Source: a bacterium
GTDB taxonomy: Bacteria; CAIJMQ01; JAADFP01
Reading direction: 5' to 3'
NCBI GenBank assembly: GCA_027021085.1
Contig: JALUVB010000090.1
Coordinates: forward strand, 1 to 10,591
DNA length: 10,591 nt
Shown: in pieces, positions 1,553 through 7,300 of the stretch
How positions within the stretch are numbered: the stretch's first letter is position 1
Layout of the letters: every line of letters begins with the position of its first letter
Notes under the pieces: model-generated
Seen by the model: the letters and a program-made list of their open reading frames with translations, nothing else
Databases searched by the model: none
What the model was told of the DNA's origin: nothing
Program-made: the position numbers and the translations under genes

Positions 1553-2560
1553 TTAGCAGATTCTGGGTAGCTGTTCACCGGAGAGCATCTCAATTATACG
1601 GTGCCCCCCGCTTTCTGTTTCCATAACTACTTTGCCTCCTGGGGCTTCTACTACTTCCCCGATAACAGCAGCTTCTTTGCCCAGGGGATGGTTGCGCATG
1701 CTCTGGATAATATCTTCCCCATCACCCGCACAGACCAGGAGCACTTTTCCCTCGTTGGCAATATATAGCGGGTCAAAGCCGAGTATCTCACAAAGAGCCT
1801 GCACTTCTTCTTTTAGCGGGATATTTTTTTCGTAGAGAACGATGCCATAATCCATGCCTGATACAATCTCATTCAGTGTAGTGGCTACACCGCCCCGGGT
1901 AGGGTCCCGCATGAATTTTACCCGGGGGGAAGCGTTGAGAACCCGGGAAATCAAGCTGGAGAGAGGGGCACAGTCAGAAGCAATCCTGGTTTCAAAATCA
2001 AATCCTTCCCGTTCACAGAGAATAGCCATGCCGTGTTCTCCGATGCCTCCGTTAATGATTATCTTATCCCCCGGCTTAATTTTCCTTCTGTCATAGGAGA
2101 TTTTTTTATCCCTGATTCCTATGCCGGAAGTATTCACAAACAATTTGTCCACACTGTTCTTTTCCACCACTTTAAGGTCTCCGGTAACAATTTTTACCCC
2201 TGCTTCCTTGCTCACCAGAGACATGGATTCGGCGATTTTTTCCAGTATTTCAATCTCCAACCCCTCTTCAACAATCAACCCGCAGGAAATGTAGAGAGGC
2301 TGTGCTCCCGTCACGGACAGGTCATTCACCGTCCCGCAAATGGCCAGTTTACCTATATCCCCCCCGGGGAAAAAGAGCGGATCTACCACGTAGGAATCAG
2401 TGGTAAAACAAACTTGCTTTTCTGCCGGAATTTGTAAAACAGCCGAGTCATTTAACTCATCCAGAATTTCGTTGTGAAATTTTTTAAGGAAAACATCCTC
2501 TATCAGGGAATGCATCAGTTTCCCGCCACTGCCGTGCGAAAGAAGGATTTTGGAATACAT
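1553..2560 (-). CDS. hypE: Hydrogenase maturation protein HypE
   Basis: HypE dehydrates the thiocarboxamide on its own C-terminal cysteine, made by HypF from carbamoyl phosphate, to a thiocyanate. It then passes cyanide to HypCD for the Fe(CN)2CO centre of NiFe-hydrogenase. The protein has 335 aa from the chosen start and ends in PRIC, the diagnostic C-terminus with the reactive Cys335. Other family landmarks are LSHGSGGKLM (7-16), FTTDSYVVDPLFFPGG (52-67), CGTVNDLSVTGAQP (75-88), VTGDLKVV (125-132) and RDPTRGGV (218-225), the last belonging to the AIR-synthase/PurM-like ATP fold. The same frame stays open to 2707, but those 49 extra codons do not resemble HypE. The family N-terminus and a promoter at 2571-2579 both support the ATG at 2560. 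No other hyp or hydrogenase gene is visible, so it appears monocistronic here. Confidence 0.97.
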   Translation of the reverse strand: MYSKILLSHGSGGKLMHSLIEDVFLKKFHNEILDELNDSAVLQIPAEKQVCFTTDSYVVDPLFFPGGDIGKLAICGTVNDLSVTGAQPLYISCGLIVEEGLEIEILEKIAESMSLVSKEAGVKIVTGDLKVVEKNSVDKLFVNTSGIGIRDKKISYDRRKIKPGDKIIINGGIGEHGMAILCEREGFDFETRIASDCAPLSSLISRVLNASPRVKFMRDPTRGGVATTLNEIVSGMDYGIVLYEKNIPLKEEVQALCEILGFDPLYIANEGKVLLVCAGDGEDIIQSMRNHPLGKEAAVIGEVVEAPGGKVVMETESGGHRIIEMLSGEQLPRIC

Positions 2561-2570
2561 CTCGGTAACT

Positions 2571-2579
2571 ATTATATCA
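2571..2579 (-). promoter_or_regulatory. Extended -10 promoter for hypE, very close to the start codon
   Basis: Read on the minus strand this is TGATATAAT, a perfect extended -10 element (TG-N-TATAAT). The hexamer at the usual -35 distance (CAACCC) is not a match, as is common for extended -10 promoters. Only 10 nt separate TATAAT from the hypE ATG at 2560, and they contain no good Shine-Dalgarno sequence. The mRNA would therefore have a leader of only about 0-5 nt. The promoter would exclude the 49-codon upstream extension from the transcript. Confidence 0.6.
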
Positions 2580-2580
2580 A

Positions 2581-2810
2581 AATAATAAGCGCCGGGTTGG
2601 GCAGTTGCAATATTTGCCTCCCCGCTACTATCAGACATAGTTGCCAGTTGCGAATTGTCCCCGATGTCCATCGGTCCCGGCGCCTGTCGGGGCACCTGTT
2701 CCCCCATGTTAGACTATAGACATCAGACGGGAAAGACACATGATACGGGGGCCCAACTCACTGTTCACTATATTTTCCCCTCACTACTATCTACTCGCTA
2801 CTTACCTCAA
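2581..2810. other. Non-coding stretch between hypE and the sulfatase remnant
   Basis: I see no gene here. The minus-strand hypE frame continues open to 2707 but without family similarity, and the plus-strand frame from 2655 becomes recognisable only at about 2811. The stretch holds a small hairpin at 2661-2674 (CCGAT, 4-nt loop, ATCGG). That hairpin competes with a larger pairing of CCCCGA (2659-2664) with TCGGGG (2687-2692). The heptamer repeat listed separately lies at its right end. No promoter or RNA gene can be supported beyond the hypE -10 box. Confidence 0.5.
2758..2808. repeat. Degenerate 7-bp-period tandem repeat
   Basis: Two blocks share a 7-base period. The first is TCACTGT-TCACTAT at 2758-2771. 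After 9 bases, the second is TCACTAC-TATCTAC-TCGCTAC-TTACCTC at 2781-2808, in which CTAC recurs exactly every 7 bases and CTACT occurs at 2784, 2791 and 2798. On the minus strand the unit reads roughly AGTAGNN or AGTGANN. It ends directly where the sulfatase similarity begins (about 2811). It may be a remnant of an intergenic heptamer array; no mobile-element gene is nearby. Confidence 0.55.
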
Positions 2811-3287
2811 GCCCTGCTTCCCACGCTTTGCCAGTGGGCAGGGGCTGAGATATTTTCCCGGGTAAGTGGCAGTAGCCTGGTTCCACTCATTGATGGGGGG
2901 GCAAATTACCGGGGAAATATTGCCAAGGCCGAATATTACGATGGGGGATGTAATCACATGGTGCTAAAAGGCAAATGAAAGCTATGCTTTTATGGTAACT
3001 ATGAAGATTATGAGTTGTACGGCCTGGAGAGTGACCCGCGGGAAAAAACAACAGAGCCAACTACCCGGCCTGTAAACAGATAGTTGAGGAACTAAAGGAA
3101 CTTAGTTTCGACGATGGATGGAGGATCATTGGTGTGTTTAAGAGAAGTGACGAGGGACTTACTTAATGAATACGGGTATTACGAGATGTTTTATCGGTAT
3201 GGAAATACTGCGGGCAGTAATCCTTTACTCAAAGATTTGCCCGATTGCTGGCCCGGGATTCGGGATTGCAAAAATTATGTTGAATGA
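2811..3287 (+). pseudogene. Decayed C-terminal fragment of a sulfatase (alkaline-phosphatase superfamily)
   Basis: An intact sulfatase would hydrolyse sulfate esters of glycans. Here only the C-terminal part survives, in three pieces. Piece 1 (from 2811) reads ALLPTLCQWAGAEI then SGSSLVPLIDG, matching the family pattern DLLPTLxxLAGxxxPxxxxGxSLxPLL. It meets an in-frame TGA at 2976-2978, where a Trp codon would restore the frame, and continues with YEDYELYGLESDPREK, the sulfatase motif ELYDLxxDPxE. Piece 2, in another frame from about 3047 after a one-base loss in an A-run, reads NNRANYPACKQIVEELKEL and FDDGW. Piece 3, shifted again from about 3144, reads EVTRDLLNEYGYYEMF and ends NYVE before TGA at 3285-3287. 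The whole catalytic N-terminus, with the formylglycine-site Cys or Ser, is absent. The remnant lies directly upstream of the glycoside hydrolase gene on the same strand, so the two were probably once partners. The multiple lesions make a functional product very unlikely. Confidence 0.82.
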
Positions 3288-3348
3288 AGGATGTTTATGG
3301 TAAAATATTTCTCTCTTGCAGCAGGAATATTTCTGCCGTGGATATAAT
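3280..3348 (+). promoter_or_regulatory. Candidate promoter region for the glycoside hydrolase gene
   Basis: Two possible -10 elements lie in the gap before the gene at 3381. At 3298-3306 the sequence TGGTAAAAT is a good extended -10, with TTGAAT at 3280-3285 and a short 15-nt spacer. At 3343-3348 there is an exact TATAAT preceded by TGGA, but its best upstream hexamer, TTGCAG (3316-3321), is 21 nt away, which is too far. Either could drive the gene. The transcript would carry a strong Shine-Dalgarno sequence, AAAAGGAG at 3365-3372, 8 nt before the ATG. Confidence 0.4.
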
Positions 3349-3380
3349 GAGATAGCAGCGAGCTAAAAGGAGATAACGAA

Positions 3381-5354
3381 ATGAAAAAGTTGCGTTTCAG
3401 GCAGATTCATCTGGATTTTCATACCTCCGAGTTGATTGAGGGTATAGGTGCTGATTTCAATCCGGATGATTTTGCAAGAACCCTCAAGGAAAGTTACGTA
3501 GATTCTATTACCTGTTTTGCCAAGTGTCACCATGGTATGGCCTACTATCCTACCAAAGTGGGGATAAAGCACCCTCATTTAAAAAGGGACCTGCTGGGAG
3601 AAATGATAGAGGCCTGTCATGCAGAGGATATTTGGGTCCCTGCCTATATCAGCGTCTGTTTCGACGAGTACATGGCCAGGGAACACCCTGAATGGCGGCA
3701 GTTGGATGGTGAAGGTAAAATGAGGGGTGCTGGTCCTTTACGGGCCGGCTGGCATATTCTCTGCCTCAATTCAGCTTACGCAGATTACCTGGCTCAGCAG
3801 ACAGAAGAGGTGCTCAGGAATTATGAAACAGATGGCATATTTTTTGATATTGTTGTGCATCCTGAGGCAGGATGTTTCTGTCGCTGGTGTGTGCAGGATA
3901 GGGAAGAGCTTAACCTGGATAGTGAATCAGGGGAGGATTTAAAGAAGCACAAGGAGATAGTTCTCCAGCGTTTTCAGAAGCGCTTGTATGACGTGGTGCA
4001 GAGACTCAAGCCGGACGTAAGTGTTTTCTTTAATGGTAGCATTCGCATAGGCATGCGTAGCACTTTACCCTATCTTACCCACCTGGAAATAGAATCTTTG
4101 CCTTCGGGCGGCTGGGGATACAGACATTTCCCTTTCTTTGTCAGGTACTGCCGTACCCTGGGTAAGGATTTTCTGGGTATGACGGCGCGCTTTCACAAAT
4201 CTTGGGCTGATTTCGGCAGTCTCAAGAACCAAGCTGCCCTGGAATACGAATGTTTTTCCATGCTGGCAAGTGGCGCCAAATGTTCCATAGGTGACCAGCT
4301 GCATCCGCGCGGGGAATTGAATAAGGCTGCATATAAGAGAATTGGCAGAGTGTATAAAAGCGTGGCGGAAAAAGAGCCCTGGTGTACAGAGGCAAAGCCT
4401 GTGGCCCAGATAGGAGTGGTTTCTGTTGCGGCGCAGGACCATGTCTCGGCGGATAGTATTCATCCCTCAGATGAGGGCGCCATGCGGATGCTATTGGAGA
4501 CTCATCATCAGTTCGATATCCTGGACCTGGAGGCTGATTTTTCCCGCTACGAGTTGATAATCCTCCCGGATAGCATATTAATCTCGCCTCCCCTCCGGGA
4601 AAAAATAGACACCTTTTTAAAAAAAGGAGGTAAGCTTATCCTGAGCAGTGAATCCGGGCTGAATCAAGAAGAGGATGCTTTTGTCCTGCCCCAGATAGGC
4701 CTCAGGTATAGGGGAAAGGATGAATATTGCCCAAATTATTTCCGGGTAAAGGAAGCGGTTGCCAATGGTATCCCGGATATGCCGCATATAATGTACGAAG
4801 GCAGTGCCCGGGTAGAGCCGGAGGAGGGCACAGAGGTGCTGGCCACTGTGATGCATCCGTACTTTAACCGTACTTACAAGCATTTTTCTTCCCATTCCCA
4901 TGCACCGGTGGAAAAGGAGACAGGATTGCCAGCCGTAACCAGGAAAGGCGAGGTTATCTATATCTCCAGTCCCATATTCAGGGCATACAAACTGCATGGC
5001 TATATTGTCTACCGGCAGTTAGTGGAAAACCTGGTAGAACTGCTTCTGCCAAAAAAGTTGGTAAAAGCCGAAGCCCCCTCCACCTGCAGGGTAACCATGA
5101 TGGAACAGGAGAACCGGCGTATAGTGCACCTATTACATTATATCCCGGAAAGACGGGTGGATAGACTGGACATCGTGGAGGATGTTATTCCGCTGTGCAA
5201 CCTGAAAGTATCTGTCTATGTGGGTAATAGGGCTCCCGGGAAGGTATATTTAGCTCCTGAAAGACAGCCGGTGGAGTTCAGCCAGGAGGGGGAATATATC
5301 AATTGCCTTATCCCCTGCCTGAAGGGACATTGCATGTTAGTAATAGAAAAATAG
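3381..5354 (+). CDS. GHL6-type glycoside hydrolase with beta-galactosidase-trimerisation-like domain (possible alpha-L-fucosidase)
   Basis: Probable cytoplasmic carbohydrate-active enzyme of 657 aa, without a signal peptide. Residues 10-110 (HLDFHTSELIEGIG, DSITCFAKCHHGMAYYPTKVG, HPHLKRDLLGEMIEACHA) match the hypothetical glycosyl hydrolase 6 family (Pfam GHL6), a TIM-barrel start. DGIFFDI (151-157) is the usual barrel strand carrying an acidic residue. It is followed by CFCRWC (165-170), a conserved cysteine cluster of this group. The barrel continues through HLEIESLPSGGWGYRHFPFF (234-253) and SIGDQLHPRG (302-311). From about 343 an alpha/beta domain like the beta-galactosidase trimerisation domain follows (HQFDILDLEADFSRYELIILPD), then a C-terminal beta-rich part. 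Such proteins are often annotated as alpha-L-fucosidase; CAZy GH151 fucosidases share, from memory, a similar architecture. The activity is inferred and unproven, and the catalytic residues are not identified with certainty. The sulfatase remnant just upstream fits degradation of a sulfated glycan. Confidence 0.85.
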   Translation: MKKLRFRQIHLDFHTSELIEGIGADFNPDDFARTLKESYVDSITCFAKCHHGMAYYPTKVGIKHPHLKRDLLGEMIEACHAEDIWVPAYISVCFDEYMAREHPEWRQLDGEGKMRGAGPLRAGWHILCLNSAYADYLAQQTEEVLRNYETDGIFFDIVVHPEAGCFCRWCVQDREELNLDSESGEDLKKHKEIVLQRFQKRLYDVVQRLKPDVSVFFNGSIRIGMRSTLPYLTHLEIESLPSGGWGYRHFPFFVRYCRTLGKDFLGMTARFHKSWADFGSLKNQAALEYECFSMLASGAKCSIGDQLHPRGELNKAAYKRIGRVYKSVAEKEPWCTEAKPVAQIGVVSVAAQDHVSADSIHPSDEGAMRMLLETHHQFDILDLEADFSRYELIILPDSILISPPLREKIDTFLKKGGKLILSSESGLNQEEDAFVLPQIGLRYRGKDEYCPNYFRVKEAVANGIPDMPHIMYEGSARVEPEEGTEVLATVMHPYFNRTYKHFSSHSHAPVEKETGLPAVTRKGEVIYISSPIFRAYKLHGYIVYRQLVENLVELLLPKKLVKAEAPSTCRVTMMEQENRRIVHLLHYIPERRVDRLDIVEDVIPLCNLKVSVYVGNRAPGKVYLAPERQPVEFSQEGEYINCLIPCLKGHCMLVIEK

Positions 5355-5367
5355 TTTTTCTTTTACA

Positions 5368-5396
5368 TTGCACTTTTAACCAGGGTGGGTTATAAT
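5368..5396 (+). promoter_or_regulatory. Near-consensus sigma70 promoter for htpX-mreB-pilT
   Basis: TTGCAC (5368-5373) and a perfect TATAAT (5391-5396) are separated by the optimal 17 bp. Only 10 nt (5397-5406) lie between the -10 box and the htpX ATG at 5407, and they hold no Shine-Dalgarno sequence. Transcription should start within a few bases of the ATG, giving a leaderless or almost leaderless message. The htpX start is well fixed by similarity (MNQVKTFFLL), so this closeness is not caused by a wrong start choice. It is probably the main promoter of the three-gene cluster. Confidence 0.8.
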
Positions 5397-5406
5397 CCGT
5401 TAAAGA

Positions 5407-6267
5407 ATGAATCAAGTAAAAACATTTTTCCTACTTGTTAGCTTGACTCTGCTTTTAGTCTTGTTGGGAGGGGTTTTCGGGGGAAGAGGAGGAGCCACTA
5501 TTGCCTTTGTTTTTGCTCTGATAATGAACTTCGTGGTTTATTACAATTCCGACCGCTTAATCCTTGCCATGTATAGGGCAAAAAAGCTGGAGGAAGATGA
5601 ATTACCCTGGCTGCATGAGATTATTAGAGAATTAGCTGAAAGGATGAGGATTCCCACCCCCAAGCTTTATATTGTTCCCCAGCCTTCCCCCAATGCATTT
5701 GCCACGGGTAGAAGCCCTGGGCATGCCAGTGTGGCAGTTACCGCGGGGTTGGTCAAATTGCTCAACCGGGAAGAGATAGAAGGGGTTCTGGGCCACGAGC
5801 TGGCGCATGTGAAGCATAGAGACACGCTGATTCAAACAGTAGCTGCCTCTATAGCAGGGGCCATAAGTATGCTTGCTTTCTGGATGAGGTGGGGAGCAAT
5901 TTTCGGAGGGGACGATGACAATGGAGCCTCTCCTCTTTTGCTGATTCTTCTTTCTGTTCTGGCTCCTTTAGCCGCACTTTTGATTCAGATGAGCATATCC
6001 CGCAACAGGGAATATATGGCAGATGCAGGCGGGGCAAAAGTTTGCGGAAACCCCATCTATCTGGCGAATGCTTTAAAAAAGCTTGAATCTTATAAGGAGA
6101 GTTATCCCCTGGAGGCTAATCCAGCTACCTCACCTCTATTTATTGTACATCCTTTTTCTGGGAAAAGTTTTCTTTCCTCTCTTTTTTCTACCCACCCCCC
6201 TACAGAGGAGAGGATAAAGAGGTTGGAGAGCATGGCTCTTCGGGAAGGAGGGAAACATGATTTTTGA
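5407..6267 (+). CDS. htpX: Membrane zinc metalloprotease HtpX (M48 family)
   Basis: HtpX is an inner-membrane endopeptidase that degrades misfolded membrane proteins, alongside FtsH in well-studied bacteria. It has 286 aa, the normal length. Two N-terminal membrane helices (about 4-22 and 28-46) are followed by the catalytic domain. The zinc motif HELAH is at 130-134, with Glu131 as catalytic base, in the context GVLGHELAHVKHRDT. Two more hydrophobic segments lie near 142-165 and 176-196. The third zinc ligand is Glu202 in SRNREYMAD. THPPTEERI (262-270) is the conserved C-terminal motif. PNAFATG (95-101) is also typical. The gene follows a strong promoter with almost no leader. Its 3' end overlaps mreB by 11 bp, so the two are probably translationally coupled, an uncommon pairing. 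Confidence 0.97.
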   Translation: MNQVKTFFLLVSLTLLLVLLGGVFGGRGGATIAFVFALIMNFVVYYNSDRLILAMYRAKKLEEDELPWLHEIIRELAERMRIPTPKLYIVPQPSPNAFATGRSPGHASVAVTAGLVKLLNREEIEGVLGHELAHVKHRDTLIQTVAASIAGAISMLAFWMRWGAIFGGDDDNGASPLLLILLSVLAPLAALLIQMSISRNREYMADAGGAKVCGNPIYLANALKKLESYKESYPLEANPATSPLFIVHPFSGKSFLSSLFSTHPPTEERIKRLESMALREGGKHDF

Positions 6268-7300
6268 TAAAATTTTTGGAGCTTTTTCCAATGACATAGC
6301 CATTGACCTGGGCACGGCTAATACTCTGGTTTATGTTAAGGGGAAAGGAGTAGTTTTAGTGGAGCCTTCTGTGGTGGCTATGCACAAGGGGAGCAGGGCG
6401 ATTCTCGCTGTAGGGGAGGAAGCCAAGAAAATGGTAGGAAGAACTCCCGGCTCGATTGTGGCTACGCGTCCCCTCAGGGACGGGGTAATCACGGATTTTG
6501 AAGCCACGGAAGAAATGCTGCGTTATTTTATTACCAAAGTGCATAAGCGAAGGAAATTTGTGCGTCCCAGGGTTATCATTGCCGTTACTTCGGGAATAAC
6601 CGAAGCAGAGAAACGGGCAGTAAAAGAATCGGGAGCAGAGGCAGGTGCCAGAGAAATCTACCTGGTTGAAGAACCTATGGCAGCAGCCATTGGAGCAGGC
6701 CTTCCGGTGCAGGACCCGGGGGGCAACATGATAGTGGATGTGGGAGGGGGGACCTCGGAAGTAGCAGTTATCTCCCTCGCCGGCATAGTAAAATGTAAAA
6801 TGATAAAGGTGGCAGGGGATGAAATGGATGAGGCCATTATCAGGCATCTAAAAAATAAGCATAATTTGCTTATCGGAGAGAGAACTGCAGAAGAGGTAAA
6901 AATAAGAATTGGCTCTGCTTTTACGGAAGAAATGGAGGGGGAGGAGATTGAGGTCAAGGGAAGGGACCTGATTACCGGGTTGCCTAAAAATATCACCATA
7001 AATGCAGAAGAAGTAAGAGAAGCCCTGGAAGAGCCTGTCTCCAATATTGTGAGAGCGGTGAAAGAAGTGCTGGAGGAGACCCCGCCTGAACTCTCGGCCG
7101 ACCTGGTGGATAGGGGGATTGTTCTTACCGGAGGGGGCTCTCAATTAAGGGGATTGGATAAGAGGTTATCGGAGGAGACTGGCTTGCCGGTTAGGACAGC
7201 GGAAGATTCGAGCCGGTGTGTAGCGGTGGGAGCAGGGAAATGTCTTGATGAATTAAAACTTTTGAGGAGGATAGTCTCTCTTTCCAGTAACGGATATTGA
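6257..7300 (+). CDS. mreB: Rod-shape-determining actin homologue MreB
   Basis: MreB is a bacterial actin that forms membrane-bound filaments and directs the elongasome during side-wall synthesis. It has 347 aa, the normal length. The N-terminus MIFDKIFGAF is a short amphipathic helix of the kind that anchors Gram-negative MreB to the membrane. Actin-fold nucleotide motifs are visible: phosphate-1 DLGTANTLVY (17-26), phosphate-2 DVGGGTSEVAV (161-171), connect-1 VEEPMAAAIGAG (137-148) and adenosine-binding VLTGGGSQLRGLD (289-301). A strong ribosome binding site, AAGGAGG, lies at the end of htpX. The usual partners mreC, mreD and rodA are not adjacent; pilT follows 21 bp downstream instead. It could be one of several MreB paralogues, which this window cannot decide. 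Confidence 0.97.
   Translation: MIFDKIFGAFSNDIAIDLGTANTLVYVKGKGVVLVEPSVVAMHKGSRAILAVGEEAKKMVGRTPGSIVATRPLRDGVITDFEATEEMLRYFITKVHKRRKFVRPRVIIAVTSGITEAEKRAVKESGAEAGAREIYLVEEPMAAAIGAGLPVQDPGGNMIVDVGGGTSEVAVISLAGIVKCKMIKVAGDEMDEAIIRHLKNKHNLLIGERTAEEVKIRIGSAFTEEMEGEEIEVKGRDLITGLPKNITINAEEVREALEEPVSNIVRAVKEVLEETPPELSADLVDRGIVLTGGGSQLRGLDKRLSEETGLPVRTAEDSSRCVAVGAGKCLDELKLLRRIVSLSSNGY

Follow-up and report, generated by a model that had tools for sequence, protein, structure and literature searches.

The window, by which we denote the whole stretch of 10,591 nucleotides analysed here, comprises the entire contig C90 of a 1.93 Mb assembly in 307 contigs. Between hypE and the gene of a 657-residue hydrolase (3381-5354) it contains no convincing single-frame gene. 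The sequence-only reading had placed the remnant of a sulfatase gene in this interval, interrupted by one in-frame TGA and two frame changes, and all three lesions (the TGA at 2976-2978, the A-run at 3043-3048 and a third site downstream) are seen in the assembled sequence on comparison with the sulfatase locus L043 of a Kiritimatiellota MAG (JAADHT010000169.1). The second frame change was correctly recognized as such, but instead of 3120-3146 it is found slightly downstream at about 3144-3156. Likewise, the remnant consists of three segments as claimed, but these are distributed over two frames only, segments 1 and 3 being in the same frame. The features referred to below are:

1553-2707, reverse strand: hypE open reading frame, matched by the curated hypE model from about 2551 down
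2646-2805, forward strand: copy of a dispersed intergenic repeat, ending just before the remnant, as delineated by genome-wide matches
2814-3047, forward strand: remnant segment 1; identity to L043 68% over 78 residues, with 11, 14 and 43 substitutions at codon positions 1, 2 and 3
2976-2978, forward strand: in-frame TGA stop, opposite a TGG (Trp) codon of the intact relative L043
3043-3048, forward strand: A-run with the first frame change, minus one base, seen as an offset change between the tblastx segments against L043
3050-3154, forward strand: remnant segment 2, in the other frame; identity to L043 53% over 40 residues
3144-3156, forward strand: second frame change, net +7 bases (frame +1), position approximate, from the tblastx offset change
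3156-3248, forward strand: remnant segment 3, sharing its frame with segment 1; identity to L043 54% over 35 residues (3144-3248)
3381-5354, forward strand: alpha-L-fucosidase of GH151 type, 657 residues, apparently intact (PDB 6TVK; GHL6 and GH42M Pfam domains)

The translated comparison with sulfatases proposed in the sequence-only reading yields matches in all three segments. The sulfatase motifs named beforehand are all present in the forward frames of the remnant. With the raw window DNA the tblastx segments are collinear with L043 at a sum E of 2e-54 and align in order:

window 2814-3047, L043 4001-4234: segment 1
window 3035-3154, L043 4223-4342: segment 2
window 3144-3248, L043 4325-4429: segment 3

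In a search of the whole genome with the intact L043 protein, window 2814-3248 is matched to residues 338-480 of 484 with 56% identity and an E of 2.4e-43, including internal stops. The collinear tail amounts to 143 residues; the homology ends at 3248, so that L043 offers nothing to match the final codons ahead of the stop at 3285-3287. The remnant scores 147 bits against the L043 sulfatase, compared to 21.9 bits for the best of 60 dinucleotide shuffles, which excludes a chance match. The substitutions between the two are distributed over the codon positions as 31/32/75, and this excess at third positions shows that the remnant was formerly translated, during the greater part of the time since it diverged from the common ancestor.

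L043 itself is a single uninterrupted frame of 514 codons that includes the formylglycine-type site CVPSR, and its protein matches PF00884 and PF16347, both well above the cut-offs. Among 84,980 species genomes searched, it is the one strong relative of the read-through of the segments, the best of which is 62% identical. A search of the class of G052 returned no closer ortholog at E 1e-70; L043, which belongs to another phylum, is the sole close intact relative known, and the ancestral locus has not been seen in near relatives. Kiritimatiellota have been described as rich in sulfatases, often located near glycoside hydrolases (PMC10880615), which fits the nature of this closest relative. The seven other sulfatases of the genome were considered as a source of which the remnant might be a copy; this was rejected, the closest of them (L002) being only 33% identical.

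The read-through of the remnant reaches 37 bits against SGSH_C, while its 107-residue open reading frame reaches 12.5 bits at a cut-off of 29.3. The remnant is therefore not recognizable in any single frame, and it is indeed easily missed by single-frame annotation, as had been predicted. The catalytic N-terminus, previously stated to be missing, is absent: the match begins at L043 residue 338 of 484, and the formylglycine site and catalytic core of a functional sulfatase (PF00884 / S1) are lacking. A regular-expression search of 2500-3400 for a formylglycine-type [CS]-x-[PA]-x-R site found none upstream of the tail, the sole match (3016) being located inside it. In the whole-genome search with the L043 protein no missing 5′ part was found at similar identity; the other matches are other sulfatases and fragments with 28-42% identity. 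Given significant homology to an intact sulfatase over all segments, the remnant is, as judged from its sequence, the decayed 3′ part, namely the last third, of a formylglycine-type (S1-like) sulfatase gene.

On the hypE side, the listed open reading frame is N-terminally extended into the dispersed repeat (2564-2707), and the true start is probably the ATG at about 2561, near MYSKILLSHGSGG. On the other side, the adjoining hydrolase gene is intact, in agreement with the sequence-only reading: its frame is open, and its residues 3-656 match PDB 6TVK with an E of 1.9e-154. This structure is that of the GH151 alpha-L-fucosidase ALfuk2 (PMC10154630), of which the stretches appearing, by that paper's description, to contain the catalytic Asp and Glu have their counterparts in the neighbour as DGIFFDIV and HLEIESLPSGGWGY. 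With whole-length homology, an open frame and both putative catalytic stretches retained, the gene is assigned to GH151 at the sequence level. Its counterpart in the same-genus genome G001 (C137 1471-3442, L009) is divided into two overlapping frames (residues 1-564 and 553-657), an arrangement suggestive of a frameshift, either real or due to assembly. Within 1.5 kb flanks of the GH151 genes of three other genomes (G052, G021, G044) no sulfatase was seen; the neighbours there are, by eye, fucose isomerase-, GH29- and URO-D-like.

The 5′ break of the remnant lies at the edge of the dispersed repeat, with about 8 bases between the repeat end at 2805 and the start of sulfatase homology at 2814. 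Partial matches to 2640-2805 occur at no fewer than 46 places in the genome, and an 86-base core is present in at least 29 genomic copies with 90-99% identity (40 of 142 candidates scored). The fetched copies mostly stop matching at 2794-2806. In G001 the repeat and its core were matched only in part and more weakly. The repeat (2646-2805; also L075-L094) is composite, with short palindromes such as CCCGATGTCCATCGG followed by the conserved core with GTTAGACTATAGACATCAGAC and then by arrays in seven-base steps such as TTCACTATTTACTA. Heptamer repeats have been described in Beggiatoaceae, but their sequence is different from that of the repeat here (PMC4679880). A structured RNA was considered as well and discarded, as there is no Rfam match and the folding is no better than that of shuffles (z -0.02).

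Comparison of the locus with that of relatives, which had also been proposed, reveals a different arrangement in G001 and no intact copy there; the remnant itself is absent from this sister genome. Window 3256-6569 is 88% identical to G001 at the DNA level. The similarity to the hypE flank stops at window 2614, with sugar-epimerase-like genes next to it, and that to the fucosidase flank starts at 3256, behind a seryl-tRNA synthetase-like gene (both named by eye). From these limits it follows that both flanks are arranged differently in the two genomes.

We regard it as very probable that the decayed 3′ part of a sulfatase gene lies directly upstream of the GH151 gene; its 5′ part would have been lost, or the tail joined to its present surroundings, at the repeat, in addition to point decay. 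Both the position of the break and the rearrangement of the two flanks relative to G001 suggest that the repeat was the site of a recombination or deletion, besides point decay; such an event, which would be the simplest account of the break, could either have taken away the 5′ part or have joined the tail to the hypE side. The rest of the gene would have decayed by point mutations, whether before or after the repeat event, the order of events being conjectural. In its present state the remnant most likely yields no product and serves no function.

The lesions are read from one assembly, and an assembly artefact, i.e. a false join at the repeat or sequence errors in a cell with an intact sulfatase gene whose 5′ part is on an unassembled contig, has to be weighed; we consider it unlikely, though deserving of attention. 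False joins are likeliest at repeats, and the break lies at one whose core occurs at least 29 times, in several cases close to a contig end, in an assembly of 307 contigs; furthermore, one lesion sits in an A-run and the gene order differs in G001. However, no stretch longer than 36 bases is shared exactly by this copy of the repeat and any other fetched copy, and its 3′ edge is crossed by a single exact match of 14 bases or more, which is 18 bases long. The lesions are moreover of different kinds (a substitution to a stop, a loss and a gain), and the sulfatase 5′ part was not found on another contig. That the tail is still functional, either as a small protein of its own or through recoding, is barely conceivable: away from the lesions its sequence has remained well conserved, but one stop and two frame changes are accumulated within 435 bases and the catalytic residues are absent. 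A changed genetic code was rejected, as other genes in the window terminate at TGA and such a code would leave the frame changes in place; the same use of TGA, with no sign of a changed code, speaks against recoding. The decayed gene with a break at the repeat remains our preferred reading, and it is an ordinary pseudogene produced by ordinary gene decay. A literature search for sulfatase pseudogenes in MAGs yielded none.

The sequence-only reading took the remnant as the record of a recent loss of a sulfated-glycan function, which is overstated. The genome also contains seven full-length sulfatase genes, each an uninterrupted frame of 453-497 codons, so that the capacity for sulfate removal is not lost as such; one dead paralog beside seven full-length ones cannot show a loss of function. 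Nor is the term recent sustained, as no close relative offers an intact copy by which the loss could be dated, and the fragment is missing from the sister genome. What that reading missed is the position of the break at a repeat edge and the presence of other sulfatase fragments in both genomes.

One of these (G000:C19 17040-17574; L122 4541-5074) is a C-terminal fragment with a 178-residue frame devoid of the catalytic part, with a GH29 alpha-L-fucosidase gene 44 bases ahead of it. Another probable fragment (G000:C27 3647-3808; L132), with an apparent frame change and an adjoining URO-D-like gene, is found near a contig end. In G001:C100 (L119 745-1092) a 116-residue frame combines a sulfatase-like start with, seemingly directly, a sulfatase-like tail (the tail by eye); its N-terminal sulfatase match of 22.7 bits is below the cut-off of 25, and the gene seems shortened as if by internal deletion. 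Together these cases suggest that the lineage has been losing sulfatases. That a repeat multiplied in this species drives gene-truncating rearrangements, by which sulfatases of the lineage are lost singly, appears unlikely. The broken ends of L119 and L132 and the C19 junction were all found free of copies of the repeat, which argues against a shared origin of these fragments through it. Remnants of this kind are familiar, and the present one is of little importance in itself; it rather directs attention to the dispersed repeat and to the other broken sulfatases of the same lineage.

Among known systems, the remnant resembles the S1-type formylglycine sulfatases with an SGSH_C tail (PF00884 and PF16347, represented by L043), its tail being collinear and 56% identical. 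Contrary to L043-type sulfatases, it lacks the catalytic two thirds and carries one stop and two frame changes. The tail subdomain is also shared with the mucin-desulfating sulfatase 7P24 (E 3e-8) and the N-acetylglucosamine-6-sulfatase 5G2V (E 5e-7), both of them too distant for any conclusion on specificity. The neighbouring gene, which is not part of the remnant, can be aligned with ALfuk2 (PDB 6TVK) from end to end, and the DGIFxDIV and HLExESLPxGGWGY stretches are among the parts that match.
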